Virus record (IMG/VR): IMGVR_UViG_3300044825_000491
Location: 1-41,391 of that record
Length of the DNA stretch: 41,391 nucleotides
Reading direction: 5' to 3' (one strand)
Origin: a virus
The position numbers and the translations under genes were made by a program. Each line of letters begins with the position of its first letter. The first letter of the stretch is position 1. Below, one piece after another: positions 4,055 to 36,557 of the stretch. Below the pieces are notes generated by a model that was not told where the DNA came from, made no database searches, and was given only the letters and a program-made list of their open reading frames with translations.

Positions 4055-4431
4055 ATCTTCTCCTCCAGTGTCCGCTTCCAGCGTGACAGTTGAATATCCA
4101 TGAACGTCAAGTAGTTCACGGAGTCAGCGATCTCATCCCGCAACTCTTCAATCAGGCGATGCAGACTCATGTCCTCGAAAGCCTGCTTAGATCCACGGGA
4201 ATACTCACGGTTCCCGGTACCCATGATACGCAACCGGGCATAGTTCGTGAAGCGTCGCTGCGCCTCAGCGAGTTCCTCTGTAGTTACGCCGTACCCTGGA
4301 TGTTTTGGCGGGGCAATGGGTATACGGACAGGGTTATCTTCCCGGTCACCCGGTTGTGGCTCTCTATAGCCAAGCCAAGATCTCTCAGAGTCTGGAGCAG
4401 TTGCTCCCAGTCTTGCGTCAGCATCATCCAC
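4051..4431 (-). CDS. Conserved-type phage hypothetical protein (start uncertain)
   Basis: The reliable part is the C-terminal 75 residues: a Glu/Arg-rich N-terminal helix (EELAEAQRRFTNYARLRIMG), then REYSRGSKQAFEDM, then RLIEELRDEIADSVNYLTFMDI. This is a layout I recognise from short uncharacterised actinophage proteins. No good ATG precedes the helix: GTG at 4431 gives 126 residues but lies fully over the 47-residue gene at 4284-4427, whose codon third positions look far more coding. ATG at 4224 would give only 57. I report the longer form and mark the N-terminus as open. Confidence 0.55.
   Translation of the reverse strand: MDDADARLGATAPDSERSWLGYREPQPGDREDNPVRIPIAPPKHPGYGVTTEELAEAQRRFTNYARLRIMGTGNREYSRGSKQAFEDMSLHRLIEELRDEIADSVNYLTFMDIQLSRWKRTLEEKI
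4284..4427 (-). CDS. Small hypothetical protein, 47 aa
   Basis: It starts with an ATG overlapping the previous stop (ATGA) and ends TAA. The peptide has an amphipathic helix (DWEQLLQTLRDLGLAIES) then a strand-like tail (VTGKITLSVYPLPRQ). Third codon positions are rich in G/C as in neighbouring real genes, while the alternative frame over the same bases has A/T-rich third positions. Function unknown. Confidence 0.55.
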   Translation of the reverse strand: MMLTQDWEQLLQTLRDLGLAIESHNRVTGKITLSVYPLPRQNIQGTA

Positions 4432-4591
4432 GACCAGCCCCCAGGATGTCGTTCGCCCTGTCGGCCATGCGGCTACGCCACTTACGCTCGTCAATCTTCG
4501 CGGTCACATACATGACCACTGCGGCAAGCACCCATCCCGCAATCATCGACCCCAGGATGAGGACACCGAACGCTGCCACCTCTTCGCTCAC
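4424..4591 (-). CDS. Small single-pass membrane protein, 55 aa
   Basis: The GTG start overlaps the TOPRIM gene stop (GTGA). One transmembrane helix (about residues 7-29: FGVLILGSMIAGWVLAAVVMYVT) is followed by a basic cytoplasmic tail (KIDERKWRSRMADRAND). Positive-inside topology puts the C-terminus in the cytoplasm. Function unknown; it sits in the primase block. Confidence 0.6.
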   Translation of the reverse strand: MSEEVAAFGVLILGSMIAGWVLAAVVMYVTAKIDERKWRSRMADRANDILGAGRG

Positions 4592-7126: not shown

Positions 7127-7537
7127 CTACGCGGGATGGTTGTTCCACTCAGCAGTTCCACGGCGCAGAAACTCCGGGCTGCACTGGTCAGGTGTCCCCT
7201 TCGGGGTCGGGCACATCCATCCCTTCCACGGACCCTTAGCGTTACTGCCGCTACGGGGAACCATGTCACCGTGCACGCACTGCTTCACCGCCGCCGACGT
7301 GAACGACGCGGGGGGTGCGTCATTCTGCGGCACAGGAGTAGCGGTAGCCCGTGCGGTAGCCACGGTGTGAGAAGCACCCAACTTCGACTGGACACTGTGA
7401 ATAGCGGTAATCCCGCTCTCCTCCAACTCAGCGAGGAGGTCAACGAACTCTTCCATAGAGTTCGCGTACACGTTGAACAGGTCGTTACCAATCTTGAAGT
7501 TGGCTTGGACCTTCGTACCTTCAGGCGATGCGGCCAT
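7127..7537 (-). CDS. Actinophage-type hypothetical protein with Cys-rich C-terminus
   Basis: A 136-residue protein. The N-terminal half (VQANFKIGNDLFNVYANSMEEFVDLLAELEESG) looks like a small alpha/beta or OB-like domain. A Pro/Ala linker leads to CVHGDM...WKGWMCPTPKGTPDQCSPEFLRRG, a motif with three Cys and one His that I recognise from uncharacterised actinophage replication-region proteins. A ssDNA-binding role is plausible from its position between the nuclease and the replicative ATPase. It overlaps the nuclease stop. Confidence 0.65.
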   Translation of the reverse strand: MAASPEGTKVQANFKIGNDLFNVYANSMEEFVDLLAELEESGITAIHSVQSKLGASHTVATARATATPVPQNDAPPASFTSAAVKQCVHGDMVPRSGSNAKGPWKGWMCPTPKGTPDQCSPEFLRRGTAEWNNHPA

Positions 7538-8211
7538 CAGTTTGTTCCTTCCACTAGATCATCCTCAAAATCAGGACGGTACTTTTCGTTACCGTAAGCA
7601 TAGCAGTACTGCAGCACACCACACGTAGCACACAGGTTCGTCATGTTGGGGACGAAGATCCGTGCGTCGATGGCCCGCTTCACGTCACGCAGCCAGCGTT
7701 CGATCATCTTCTCAGGGTACTCGCGCAAGTCATGCACAGTGTCCAATGTCCCACTGCGTGCCATCCAGTAGGCACCGTACGTGGGTGCCTCACCGAACTG
7801 CTCCAGCAGGGCAGTCCTGTACACGGCGAGTTGCAGACCAGATTTGGGTGGCTGCCCGGTCTTCAGGTCAACGATCATGGTGCGACCGGAAACCTTGTCC
7901 ACGAATACGCGGTCGATGACGGACTTCATCAGCACGTCACCAGGTAACCGGACAGTGACACCGATCTCGATGGCGGGTACGCCTTCTTCGGTGTGCCAGA
8001 TTTCCAGGTTGGGGTTGGTTTTGCGCCAGTTGTACCAGGCGTGAACCATGCTTGGACCTTCAGCCATCCACCACGATTCGTCTTCCTTGTGCGGGTACTT
8101 CTTGCTTGCCCGTCCACCGGCACGCCACGTCTTGCCTTCGTTGTCGGCTTTCGCTTTGGCGAGTGAGGCACGGAATGCTTCCATGCCAGCCTCGTAGGCA
8201 ACAGCACTCAT
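7537..8211 (-). CDS. Cas4/RecB-like PD-(D/E)XK exonuclease, C-terminal part
   Basis: A 224-residue protein starting at the ATG at 8211 (ATGA overlap). It has the catalytic half of a RecB/Cas4-type nuclease: VIDRVFVD (first D), MIVDLKTGQPPKSGLQLAVYRTALL (D-x-K and the downstream Q-x-x-x-Y helix), and a C-terminal cluster CATCGVLQYC fitting an Fe-S or zinc site. The expected N-terminal segment of the same family is missing here but is encoded at 8777-8968, separated by three small genes. I infer that the two polypeptides assemble, or that this piece works alone. Confidence 0.8.
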   Translation of the reverse strand: MSAVAYEAGMEAFRASLAKAKADNEGKTWRAGGRASKKYPHKEDESWWMAEGPSMVHAWYNWRKTNPNLEIWHTEEGVPAIEIGVTVRLPGDVLMKSVIDRVFVDKVSGRTMIVDLKTGQPPKSGLQLAVYRTALLEQFGEAPTYGAYWMARSGTLDTVHDLREYPEKMIERWLRDVKRAIDARIFVPNMTNLCATCGVLQYCYAYGNEKYRPDFEDDLVEGTN

Positions 8212-8375
8212 TCCTGCACCCCTTCGATACGAGTCAACTTCCACTTCGCATGAAACGTGATCTCGTCCACGTCGTCGTCTCCTCGCCACACAACAGGTTC
8301 CCAGCGCCATCCACTTGGGGCGGCAGGCAACTCGGGGGTAAGTTCATCTATGGCGCGATCTATCCACTTACTCAT
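8208..8375 (-). CDS. Small hypothetical protein, 55 aa
   Basis: ATGA overlaps at both ends couple it to its neighbours. It is acidic with several Trp (GWRWEPVVWRGDDDVDEITFHAKW). It is one of three small genes lying between the two halves of the nuclease. Function unknown. Confidence 0.6.
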   Translation of the reverse strand: MSKWIDRAIDELTPELPAAPSGWRWEPVVWRGDDDVDEITFHAKWKLTRIEGVQE

Positions 8376-8659
8376 GCTTGCACCTTGCTTATGGCATCAA
8401 GGACATGCTTGCGGTACTCCATAACAGTGATCGGTGCCTTACTTTCCCACCGCTCATCAGTGATGTGAGCGATGGATTCCACTGCTGCGATGCACGCTGC
8501 ACGCATAGCCGCCATTCCATGCAGAAATCCAAGGGTCTTGTATGTGTCGGCTGACTCGTTCAACGCCTCAACATGATCTTCATATCCGACCCACTCACCA
8601 TCGTAGTCGCCTTCGATAATTGGTTCTCGGGTTGTGATCTTGTATCGCTGAATACTCAT
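8372..8659 (-). CDS. Hypothetical protein, 95 aa
   Basis: It has an N-terminal strand region (YKITTREPIIEGDYDGEWVGYED) followed by a long helical half (NESADTYKTLGFLHGMAAMRAACIAAVESIAHI). ATGA overlaps join it to both neighbours. It is the central and largest member of the cassette that interrupts the nuclease. No recognisable family. Confidence 0.65.
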   Translation of the reverse strand: MSIQRYKITTREPIIEGDYDGEWVGYEDHVEALNESADTYKTLGFLHGMAAMRAACIAAVESIAHITDERWESKAPITVMEYRKHVLDAISKVQA

Positions 8660-8784
8660 GCTTTCTCCTGATCAAATGCTCCACCAATGTAGGTAACTTC
8701 AATTTCCTCATCGGTTAATTTTGTTTGACCAGAAACGTACCAACCGACAGGTTTAAGTTTAGACAGGTCAAGAAATTCAGCCAT
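8656..8784 (-). CDS. Small hypothetical protein, 42 aa
   Basis: The ATG at 8784 lies 8 bp inside the end of the nuclease N-terminal gene. The peptide (MAEFLDLSKLKPVGWYVSG, then TDEEIEVTYIGGAF) is well formed and its stop overlaps the next start (ATGA). It is the first gene of the three-gene insert. Its base composition is more A/T-rich than the flanking nuclease halves. Confidence 0.55.
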   Translation of the reverse strand: MAEFLDLSKLKPVGWYVSGQTKLTDEEIEVTYIGGAFDQEKA

Positions 8785-8968
8785 TTTTGTTCTTCAACAG
8801 TGCGTGGTCGATGGCGTCGGCAGCGGAGTGCACTGCCGTGCCACCGGCGAAGTACCAGGCTGGGTCTTCTTCCAGTTTCAGGATACGGGTCAAGCGGTAC
8901 TTCTCCCCGCACTGGAGCCAGGTGGTGAGTTGACTGTACGAAATGTACGGTTCGTTAGTTTCTTCCAT
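8777..8968 (-). CDS. Cas4/RecB-like exonuclease, N-terminal part
   Basis: A 63-residue protein from the ATG at 8968. It carries the start of the Cas4/RecB-like actinophage nuclease family: YISYSQLTTWLQCGEKYRLTR, containing the conserved Ser-Gln-Leu and Cys, then WYFAGGTAVHSAADAID, the G-x-x-x-H segment that supplies an active-site His/acid. It ends LLKNKNG at a TGA. The rest of the family is encoded downstream at 7537-8211. The promoter at 8975-9003 places the transcript start on the A of this ATG. Confidence 0.75.
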   Translation of the reverse strand: MEETNEPYISYSQLTTWLQCGEKYRLTRILKLEEDPAWYFAGGTAVHSAADAIDHALLKNKNG

Positions 8969-8974
8969 GCCGGA

Positions 8975-9003
8975 AGTATGGGCGTGTCGGGTTGCGGTGT
9001 CAA
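8975..9003 (-). promoter_or_regulatory. Sigma-70-type promoter, probably leaderless
   Basis: On the minus strand TTGACA (9003-8998) is followed after 17 nt by CATACT (8980-8975, 4/6 to TATAAT). Six nucleotides later comes the ATG of the nuclease N-terminal gene, so initiation at the usual distance would make a leaderless mRNA. There is no Shine-Dalgarno before that ATG. Confidence 0.55.
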
Positions 9004-9310: not shown

Positions 9311-9349
9311 AAGAAAAAGACCCCCCAATCCAGATTGGACCAGGGGGTC
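9311..9349 (-). terminator. Intrinsic terminator of the late operon
   Basis: On the minus strand a GACCCCC/GGGGGTC stem (9349-9343 with 9325-9319), with an inner CAATC/GATTG hairpin, is followed directly by TTTTTCTT. It lies 20 bp after the endolysin stop, so it ends the roughly 24-kb leftward late transcript. Confidence 0.85.
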
Positions 9350-31957: not shown

Positions 31958-33871
31958 CTACGCTCCGATGGGGTTCCATGCCCCTGCTGCTTCAGCCTCC
32001 AACAGGCTGACGGTGCGCTGCTGGTCCCTATCCCACTTAGTCAAGAACGGGTTGTTTACGTGCGTGCGGGTGTAGTTCGATGCCAACATAACCCGGTCCC
32101 TGCAGGCAAGTTCAGCGAACCACAGGGCCATCACGATGTCTGTCTTCTGGTTCTTCGGCGCGTCAGGGTGCCAGGTCACCAGTTGCTCCACGAGCGACTT
32201 CGCCGCCTCGTTGCCGTGCGTAGACGGAAGTTCAATAAGTTGCCGCTTATCCTCCCACCCGTTGAAGAGGGTGGTCATGGAGGCGACACCGAAATCTGCG
32301 TCATGCTTGTTTTGGCCGGTGAAGTGGGGGCGAATCACAGTGCCCCGTGCCGCACAGAACTCGTTAATCTCGCGGTCGTGCACCAGGAACCCTTGGAAGC
32401 CGTTACGTTCAATACGCCACTCAATAATCTTGTAGCGTTCCGTCCACGAGCGGATCATCTCCCGCATGGCCTCAGGTGTGATACCTGGCTTGTTGTACAC
32501 GTCCAGCACGTACCGGCGCTGGTTCTGAATATCTAGTCCGACAACCACGGCGGCAGTATGACCTGAGGTTGCAGGGTCAAGACCAGCGACGATGATCAAA
32601 CCGTCCATGCCGTTCTCGCGGCAGTTCACCATGCCCCTAGGTATCGGGCCGGTCATGCGGTTTCCGTTAATCGCCGTACGGACTGCTTCGGCGTTGAACA
32701 CCGCGTCATCGGCTACCTGCTGCTGCTGGTACACCATAGCCCACGCACGAGGCGAAACCCTGCGGCGCTTCTGTGACAGGCGGGGACCATCCCACTTCGG
32801 GAACAAACCATCACCGTCAGGTTCTACACCGCGAGTACCAGGCTCCGGCTGATTCGACCTGGGCCACAACGTAACCCAGTCGTCGGCCTGGTCAGAGAAC
32901 TCCAGCACGGCAGGCATCGACAGGTACGACCACGGCGACTCCTCATCAGGGTACCTGTGGGGGTCACGAAGTTCCGAATACAAATCCTTCGACGCCAGAC
33001 GGGTGCCCACGATCAGCATAGAACCAGTGGCCGACACGCGGGAGATAACCTCCGCCTGCAGCCAGTCAATCTGCTTATCGTACTCGTGGGCGTTCGTGAG
33101 ATCCACGCAGTCATCCATGATGATCAAATCGGCGCGGGCACCGTAAATGTGGCCCCGGATACCCAAAGCCTGCACCGTGGGGTCCTTCTCGCCAGAATCA
33201 CGGGCGTCATCAGAAATGTAGATCATCGACTGGTTCCACGCCTCAGAGTTCTTATCGAACCCCCCAGACGGGCCATAGTCCGCGATCATCTCATCATAGC
33301 GGGGATGGGTCAGGCGGGTCTTGATGGCGTACAGCATCTTCTTCGCCATCTCAGCCGTCTTCGACACCACGATCACCCGAATGTTCGGGTCCATGCAAAT
33401 CCGGTACACCACATAGTTGATAGTGATAGAAGTGGTCTTGGCGTGTTCGGGTGGCATGTTCACCATCACCAGGTCACGCTCACCAGGCTCAAACACCATC
33501 GACGGGTGCACCCAAGAAGGCTCACGGCCCTCAATCAGATCCACCACATTCCCCATGTGAGGAAACACACGGGCATCCAGGTACTTCTCGGAGAACTCAG
33601 GGAACGGCATCCAGTCCCGCTCACGCGGCCCAGAAATACGCTCCAGCGACCTGATCCGCTCAACAGCGGTCACGAAATCCTTATCGTCCCGCCGCCACCT
33701 CTCATAGGTGGAACGGTTACGGCCAACAGCCTGAATCGACTGCTCCACGTTCAAGCCACGCTGGAAGTTCCTCAGGAACTCCTGCTTCGCGGCCTCAACA
33801 GTCTGGCCGACTTTCCTACCAGCCCTGGCAGCCAAAGTTTCAAACCCTCCGGTATAAGCCAAGGCAGACAC
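31958..33871 (-). CDS. Terminase large subunit with fused N-terminal HTH
   Basis: 637 residues, GTG start. The packaging ATPase has Walker A MPPEHAKTT (139-147) and Walker B LIIMDD (249-254). The RNase H-like nuclease starts at IIVAGLDPATSGHT (D432) with a late acidic residue in KTDIVMALWFAEL. Residues about 36-65 (FQRGLNVEQSIQAVGRNRSTYERWRRDDKDF) look like a helix-turn-helix such as small terminases carry. No separate small-terminase gene was found, so this fusion may do both jobs. First gene of the late operon. Confidence 0.88.
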   Translation of the reverse strand: MSALAYTGGFETLAARAGRKVGQTVEAAKQEFLRNFQRGLNVEQSIQAVGRNRSTYERWRRDDKDFVTAVERIRSLERISGPRERDWMPFPEFSEKYLDARVFPHMGNVVDLIEGREPSWVHPSMVFEPGERDLVMVNMPPEHAKTTSITINYVVYRICMDPNIRVIVVSKTAEMAKKMLYAIKTRLTHPRYDEMIADYGPSGGFDKNSEAWNQSMIYISDDARDSGEKDPTVQALGIRGHIYGARADLIIMDDCVDLTNAHEYDKQIDWLQAEVISRVSATGSMLIVGTRLASKDLYSELRDPHRYPDEESPWSYLSMPAVLEFSDQADDWVTLWPRSNQPEPGTRGVEPDGDGLFPKWDGPRLSQKRRRVSPRAWAMVYQQQQVADDAVFNAEAVRTAINGNRMTGPIPRGMVNCRENGMDGLIIVAGLDPATSGHTAAVVVGLDIQNQRRYVLDVYNKPGITPEAMREMIRSWTERYKIIEWRIERNGFQGFLVHDREINEFCAARGTVIRPHFTGQNKHDADFGVASMTTLFNGWEDKRQLIELPSTHGNEAAKSLVEQLVTWHPDAPKNQKTDIVMALWFAELACRDRVMLASNYTRTHVNNPFLTKWDRDQQRTVSLLEAEAAGAWNPIGA

Positions 33872-35696: not shown

Positions 35697-36557
35697 ATGA
35701 ATAAGACAGATCTGGCACAGTATGTGACCGACATGATGGTGGCAGAGTTAGAGAAAGGCCTCGTGCCGTGGCGCAAGCCTTGGTCCGCTGCAGGCTACGT
35801 TCCCACTAGCCTGTCCACTGGCAAGCCTTACCGCGGTGTCAACACTTTCATACTGGCACTGGTGGGACAGTCCAAGGGGTACGAAAGTAACCTATGGACT
35901 ACGTACAAGCAGGCAGCGGAGCGTGGTGGCAACGTCAGGAAGGGCGAAAAGTCCACGACAGTGGTCTATTGGAAGATTCTTGACGTGAAGGATAAGGCTA
36001 CTGGTGAGGATAAGAAAGTGCCATTCCTAAGGCACTTCAACGTGTTCAACCTTGACCAGTGTGACGGCTTGGACGCTTACCGTGGTAAGCCTGAGCCGCG
36101 TACGGTGGTGGTGGAGGATGCGGTGCACGCTACTTGGCAAGGCTACAAGGATGGTCCCACGTTGCGGCATGTGGCTGGTGATCGTGCCTACTACAGTCCG
36201 TCGGATGACCAGATAACAATGCCCCTGGTGGAGTCGTTCCATGATGGTGCAGCGTATGCGGAGACTCTGTTCCATGAGATGACGCATAGCACTGGTCACC
36301 AGTCGAGGCTTGGTAGGCTTGGGGGTAGCGTTGCCGTGGCGGCTTTCGGGTCACCGGACTATGCCAAGGAGGAACTGGTGGCAGAGTTAGGTGCGGTGAT
36401 GCTACTGGGCCATGCTGGTATCCCTGTCGATGCGCAGAATAGTGCATCGTACGTGGGGGGATGGTTGCGTGCACTGCAGGATGACCGTAACCTAATCATC
36501 AGTGCAGCGCAGCAAGCACAGAAGGCTTTTGACCGTATCGTGGGGGATGTAGAGTAG
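35697..36557 (+). CDS. ArdC-like antirestriction protein (ssDNA-binding domain + zinc metallopeptidase)
   Basis: 286 residues. The N-terminal domain (about 1-125) has WRKPW, PTSLSTGKPYRGVN and ARDC-type VRKGEKSTTVVYWK, the ssDNA-binding domain of plasmid ArdC proteins. The C-terminal domain has the zinc motif HEMTHSTGH (193-201) and the downstream YAKEELVAELGAVML segment of the ArdC-associated peptidase. In plasmids ArdC protects incoming ssDNA and cleaves host defence proteins in some reports. Here it would be an early anti-defence protein (inference). Confidence 0.85.
   Translation: MNKTDLAQYVTDMMVAELEKGLVPWRKPWSAAGYVPTSLSTGKPYRGVNTFILALVGQSKGYESNLWTTYKQAAERGGNVRKGEKSTTVVYWKILDVKDKATGEDKKVPFLRHFNVFNLDQCDGLDAYRGKPEPRTVVVEDAVHATWQGYKDGPTLRHVAGDRAYYSPSDDQITMPLVESFHDGAAYAETLFHEMTHSTGHQSRLGRLGGSVAVAAFGSPDYAKEELVAELGAVMLLGHAGIPVDAQNSASYVGGWLRALQDDRNLIISAAQQAQKAFDRIVGDVE

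Follow-up and report, generated by a model that had tools for sequence, protein, structure and literature searches.

In Cas4, the Fe-S cluster is held by one N-terminal and three C-terminal cysteines, an arrangement described as an "iron staple" (PMC4176176; PMC3466216). In some Cas4 proteins, Cys-to-Ala mutants stay active without the cluster (PMC4176176), and the staple role thus need not be essential. In cultured phages, among them mycobacterial and skin-bacterium phages, the related nuclease is a single gene; this holds for Pahexavirus and Fromanvirus and for phages of Rhodococcus, Gordonia, Thermobifida, and Streptomyces, and agrees with what the original prediction had stated for actinophages. 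Phage enzymes whose genes come in pieces are also known, such as Aeh1 NrdA, the gp43A/43B DNA polymerase, and the T4 topoisomerase, and some of these split enzymes have been shown to reassemble or to work in trans (PMC2988022). We found no description of a split Cas4-like phage nuclease in the literature searched.

The window analyzed herein, i.e., the whole 41,391-nt stretch of the viral record IMGVR_UViG_3300044825_000491, carries such a nuclease as two separate genes on the minus strand, whose positions had been predicted correctly. The N-part gene (8777-8968; 63 aa) holds the first putative Fe-S cysteine (C20) and the motif-I histidine (H47 in GGTAVH), and the C-part gene (7537-8211; 224 aa) holds motif II (D100), motif III (D115-x-K117), the QxxxY motif (Q127 and Y131), and three further putative Fe-S cysteines (C194-x2-C197-x5-C203). 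At the joint between them lies a 565-nt insert (8212-8776, minus strand), which is missing from the closest relatives, with three orphan genes of 42 aa (8656-8784), 95 aa (8372-8659), and 55 aa (8208-8375), all on the same strand. The joints of this five-gene run had all been taken as ATGA overlaps; three of them are indeed ATGA overlaps of 4 nt each, but the first, at which the ATG of insert gene 1 meets the N-part stop, is an 8-nt overlap, ATGGCTGA, and not strictly ATGA. The next downstream gene (7127-7537, minus strand; PF25690, L5/D29 gp49-like), the start of which overlaps the C-part stop in TGATG, provided a control boundary. The genes tested around the nuclease encode this gp49-like protein, a DnaB-like helicase, a resolvase, a Toprim protein, and an M15 peptidase.

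Just before the N-part start, a putative sigma-70-like promoter (8975-9003, minus strand; TTGACA-17-CATACT), identified only by its match to the consensus, ends approximately 6 nt from the ATG (minus strand, window 8968-9003), and TTGAC occurs at a similar place and distance upstream in 21 of 74 split loci. Judging from the position of this putative promoter directly in front of the ATG, the message would be leaderless. A terminator-like hairpin of 14 pairs (9319-9349, minus strand) lies between the M15 peptidase gene and the putative nuclease promoter. Several relatives have operator-like inverted repeats, GACACGCC / GGCGTGTC, just upstream of the N-part; a repeated operator at GACACGCC was rejected, as it showed no excess within the window. 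Elsewhere in the window, the terminase (31958-33871, minus strand) shares 47% identity with its counterpart in Streptomyces phage FlowerPower, the nuclease of which is intact and has a similar gene order to the window but a distant sequence. The gene at 35697-36557 (plus strand) encodes an anti-restriction protein of the ArdC type that includes a zincin-like peptidase domain, and ORFs within 1-2712 resemble glycosyltransferases by eye; glycosyltransferase genes have been reported in freshwater actinophages (PMC10202952).

The two parts were searched individually against family models. The 63-aa N-part alone matched PF12705 (PDDEXK_1) at model positions 2-50 (E 2.5e-5, 24.8 bits), phrog_69 (8e-12), and phrog_1870 at 15-66, and the 224-aa C-part alone matched PF12705 at 70-246 (6e-14, 52.9 bits) and phrog_1870 at 94-296 (5e-43), both PF12705 scores being above the curated cut-off of 22. 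The two genes thus cover complementary stretches of the same models, indicating that the split is not a chance arrangement, and an intact environmental relative (L267) gave one continuous PF12705 match from 2 to 246. Sequence profiles also matched the AdnA nuclease domain. The cut-offs for Cas4 proper were missed (20.2 vs 65 bits for TIGR00372; 20.8 vs 22.7 for PF01930), and neither cas1 nor cas2 was detected among the neighboring genes tested; since both parts fall below the cut-offs, "Cas4" here denotes likeness and not membership. With this reservation, the assignment of a Cas4/RecB-like nuclease stands, and the short peptide was found to belong to the same family as the long one. From their sequences, the two parts are together one PD-(D/E)XK nuclease of the PDDEXK_1 family with iron-staple cysteines, the cluster and the activity being predicted.

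A structural model of L267 (mean pLDDT 94.9, pTM 0.90) aligned with AdnA, the Cas4-family ACE1, and Dna2 at TM scores of 0.59, 0.60, and 0.61, respectively (by query length), the alignments covering 280-327 columns and thus at least the full length of the 278-residue query. When mapped onto this model, the break in the window falls between residues 54 and 55, within the loop 52-55 that connects the helices 30-51 and 56-77. The break position was judged on this intact protein in place of an AlphaFold2 model of the natural in-frame read-through of a split relative (L182), in which the N-part was poorly predicted (block means 38-79, mostly near 50). With the putative Fe-S cysteines divided one to three between the short and the long chain, the cluster should bridge two polypeptides.

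To what extent the split is shared was evaluated by scanning viral contigs with the C-part, which yielded 33 loci, and by two wider scans, which raised the number of distinct joints to 108; these include near-copies, and 52 remain below 95% identity. Separate N and C genes were found at all 108 joints, most of which touch (ATGA/GTGA) with nothing in between. The C start overlaps the N stop by 4 nt in 76 cases, by 1 nt in 8, and by 8 nt in 7, with rarer classes of 0 nt (4, TAG|TTG), 11 nt (1), and 17 nt (1), and 10 of the 108 rows have inserts. The closest relatives, with 95-98% C-part identity, are split in the same way, their two genes overlapping by 4 nt without any insert; in the one with a 98% identical C-part, the N-part ends in GTGA, the GTG of which is the C-part start. 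A C-part without an N-part was seen at four loci, each of which starts within the C-part or at its edge. Because the first queries were split proteins, two extra scans were performed with profiles led by intact proteins, and these gave 160 loci, comprising 14 split and 146 intact ones, so that the unsplit relatives sought by the original prediction do exist. Every intact homologue found has the N-part segment in the same chain.

Two freshwater phage isolates carry the split nuclease, as does a large group of uncultured phages; a survey of prophages in bacterial genomes returned 43 pattern matches and no relatives. The two isolates are the Planktophila phages LanE43-AprF5 (OX376641) and LanE43-AprE7 (OX376640), the two lytic phages obtained with 'Ca. 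Planktophila' LanE-43 as host (PMC10202952); in both, the nuclease is split and its two genes overlap by 17 nt. The main text of that paper mentions neither exonuclease nor Cas4 nor RecB, and both accessions, which are without annotation in the collection used, are filed under 'Caudovirales sp. ct2KA10'.

Sequence comparison further revealed that the residues C1 and motif-I His in the N-part, and motif II Asp, D-x-K, QxxxY, and the last three cysteines (C2-C4) in the C-part, are invariant in 52 of 52 diverse split pairs and in 12 of 12 intact proteins. The dN/dS values in 15 pairs ranged from 0.02 to 0.26 for both parts, and both parts are thus, as judged from these substitutions, under purifying selection. 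Both findings would also be compatible with an N chain that serves a function other than that of the nuclease.

Split and intact forms were found to be interleaved. In a tree with nearer intact rows, an intact pair (L263/L272) was sister to a split row (L158; 99/97), and these three were placed next to another split row (L097; 97/98). Placing all split rows in one clade gave an AU p of 0.114 with few intact rows and of 0.009 with the nearer intact rows, and the conflict was gone when the intact pair was allowed inside the split clade (AU p 0.236). The rejection of the single split clade, together with the acceptance of one including this pair, indicated that the state has changed at least twice. 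The intact genes hence nest among the split ones, either by one fission and one re-fusion or by at least two fissions; the intact rows include long branches, and these results should be read with caution. A nesting of Pahexavirus inside the split group was seen once and was discarded, being unstable in later trees.

The original prediction had offered two accounts, namely a functional split protein or the insertion of a cassette which now regulates the nuclease, of which the functional split is the best reading. That the three-gene cassette split the nuclease and took over its regulation is very improbable. The cassette in the window does sit exactly at the joint, and its overlaps suggest translational coupling; however, the closest relatives are split without any cassette, and seven mutually unrelated inserts occur at this joint (565 nt in the window, and 207, 337, 145, 122, 232, and 180 nt in L008, L013, L021, L033, L081, and L177, respectively), with most loci having none. 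Moreover, extra DNA was present at a similar rate where the C-part meets the next conserved gene (9 of 104 rows, versus 10 of 108 at the joint), so that the N/C joint resembles any ordinary boundary between genes. These observations together exclude the cassette as the cause of the split, and a regulatory role for it finds no support. Each insert holds small orphan genes in tidy overlaps, and the one in the window was found in this phage only, other phages having different inserts or none. No match to a homing endonuclease or a known mobile family was obtained for the inserts, and, as had been anticipated for nuclease similarity, the three insert genes of the window gave no significant family match in Pfam and PHROG searches; insert gene 2 showed one weak 19-residue similarity, in a 94-kb viral contig. 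The G+C content of some inserts is below that of their flanks (0.36 vs 0.54-0.59 in L008; 0.50 vs 0.56-0.57 in the window). In L013, a 114-aa insert protein (4195-4536) looks by eye like a small winged-helix protein and has a weak hit to phrog_27658 (E 5e-4), a family of unknown function. The three insert genes in the window are a recent, unrelated addition, that is, passengers at a gene boundary.

The split could also be merely apparent, if a full-length protein were still made by frameshifting or stop-codon read-through. This is improbable, even though a relative frame of +2 is common to 85 of the 108 joints and four relatives (L179, L181, L182, and L183) have an in-frame TAG|TTG, because the C-part lies in frame +1 in 16 rows and in frame 0 in 7, and a slippery heptamer was detected at none of the 108 joints; the varied frames and the lack of a slippery sequence make a fusion product unlikely, as the original prediction had argued in dismissing a simple frameshift. 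In addition, inserts with their own genes part N from C in seven lineages, and a ribosome-binding motif precedes the C start by 5-18 nt in 88 of the 108 rows, compared with 12.6% of control windows. Somewhat less improbable, and still unlikely, is a C-part that is by itself a complete nuclease, with an N-part peptide that is vestigial or has another job: the C-part does contain the DxK core along with all but one of the four cysteines, but the N-part is always adjacent, its C1 and motif-I His are invariant, its dN/dS is 0.02-0.26, and the segment is retained within all the intact homologues. A decaying pseudogene or an assembly artefact, for which nothing speaks except the split itself, has a negligible probability in view of the 108 distinct sequences from many samples, their clean start and stop signals, and the purifying selection.

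We thus consider it highly probable that this locus in the phage replication region encodes an Fe-S PD-(D/E)XK exonuclease that is split by nature and whose two chains assemble non-covalently. The N and C genes are most likely carried on one message, and in most relatives the C gene would be translated from a ribosome-binding motif of its own, which lies within the final stretch of the N gene. The short N chain and the long C chain would then join non-covalently to form one Cas4/AdnA-like nuclease, in which a predicted four-cysteine Fe-S cluster, ligated by one cysteine of the short chain and three of the long chain, may staple the heterodimer, and the N:C complex would digest DNA. A bolder version of this reading, which we regard as possible but doubtful, is that the inter-chain staple is obligatory, so that the nuclease would be inactive until the chains meet and the cluster is inserted; its activity would be controlled by the chain ratio or by iron/redox conditions, and the group would repeatedly switch between split and fused forms. 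Since two cultivated 'Ca. Planktophila' phages have the split form, the natural split is testable. A short N-part is easily missed by annotation, and the nuclease of this group would consequently look incomplete. The conserved split offers a natural two-chain form of a much-studied Fe-S nuclease fold, in which a break point is already given and a metal cluster may connect the chains, and the interleaved split and fused forms in one family make gene fission and fusion traceable where the joint is without a homing endonuclease.

Among the known systems, the Cas4 family exonuclease of Pahexavirus and Fromanvirus (PF12705, phrog_1870/phrog_69; Cota gp36 and Bxb1 gp62) has the same motifs as the split form and shares with it a neighborhood containing a DnaB-like helicase, with a Holliday junction resolvase and a primase also located downstream in Cota. 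In Propionibacterium phage Cota gp36 and in Bxb1 gp62, however, the nuclease is one polypeptide, whereas here it is two, broken after the motif-I helix. AdnA, AddB, Dna2, Cas4, and ACE1 have a fold in common with the split nuclease, and Cas4 and AddB have the same four-cysteine arrangement (PMC4176176; PMC3466216); in these five proteins the nuclease domain and the cysteines are on one chain, in contrast to the two chains here, to which no helicase or Cas partner is fused. The split nuclease resembles the phage enzymes with genes in pieces in its two cistrons, kept separate under selection, between which extra genes may sit, reassembly having been shown or assumed for those enzymes. Unlike several of those cases, its joint gave no homing endonuclease match and is mostly free of inserts. 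Furthermore, the genes-in-pieces enzymes occur in single phages, whereas the nuclease split is kept over a divergent group, and the two nuclease chains, unlike the pieces of those enzymes, would be bridged by a metal cluster.
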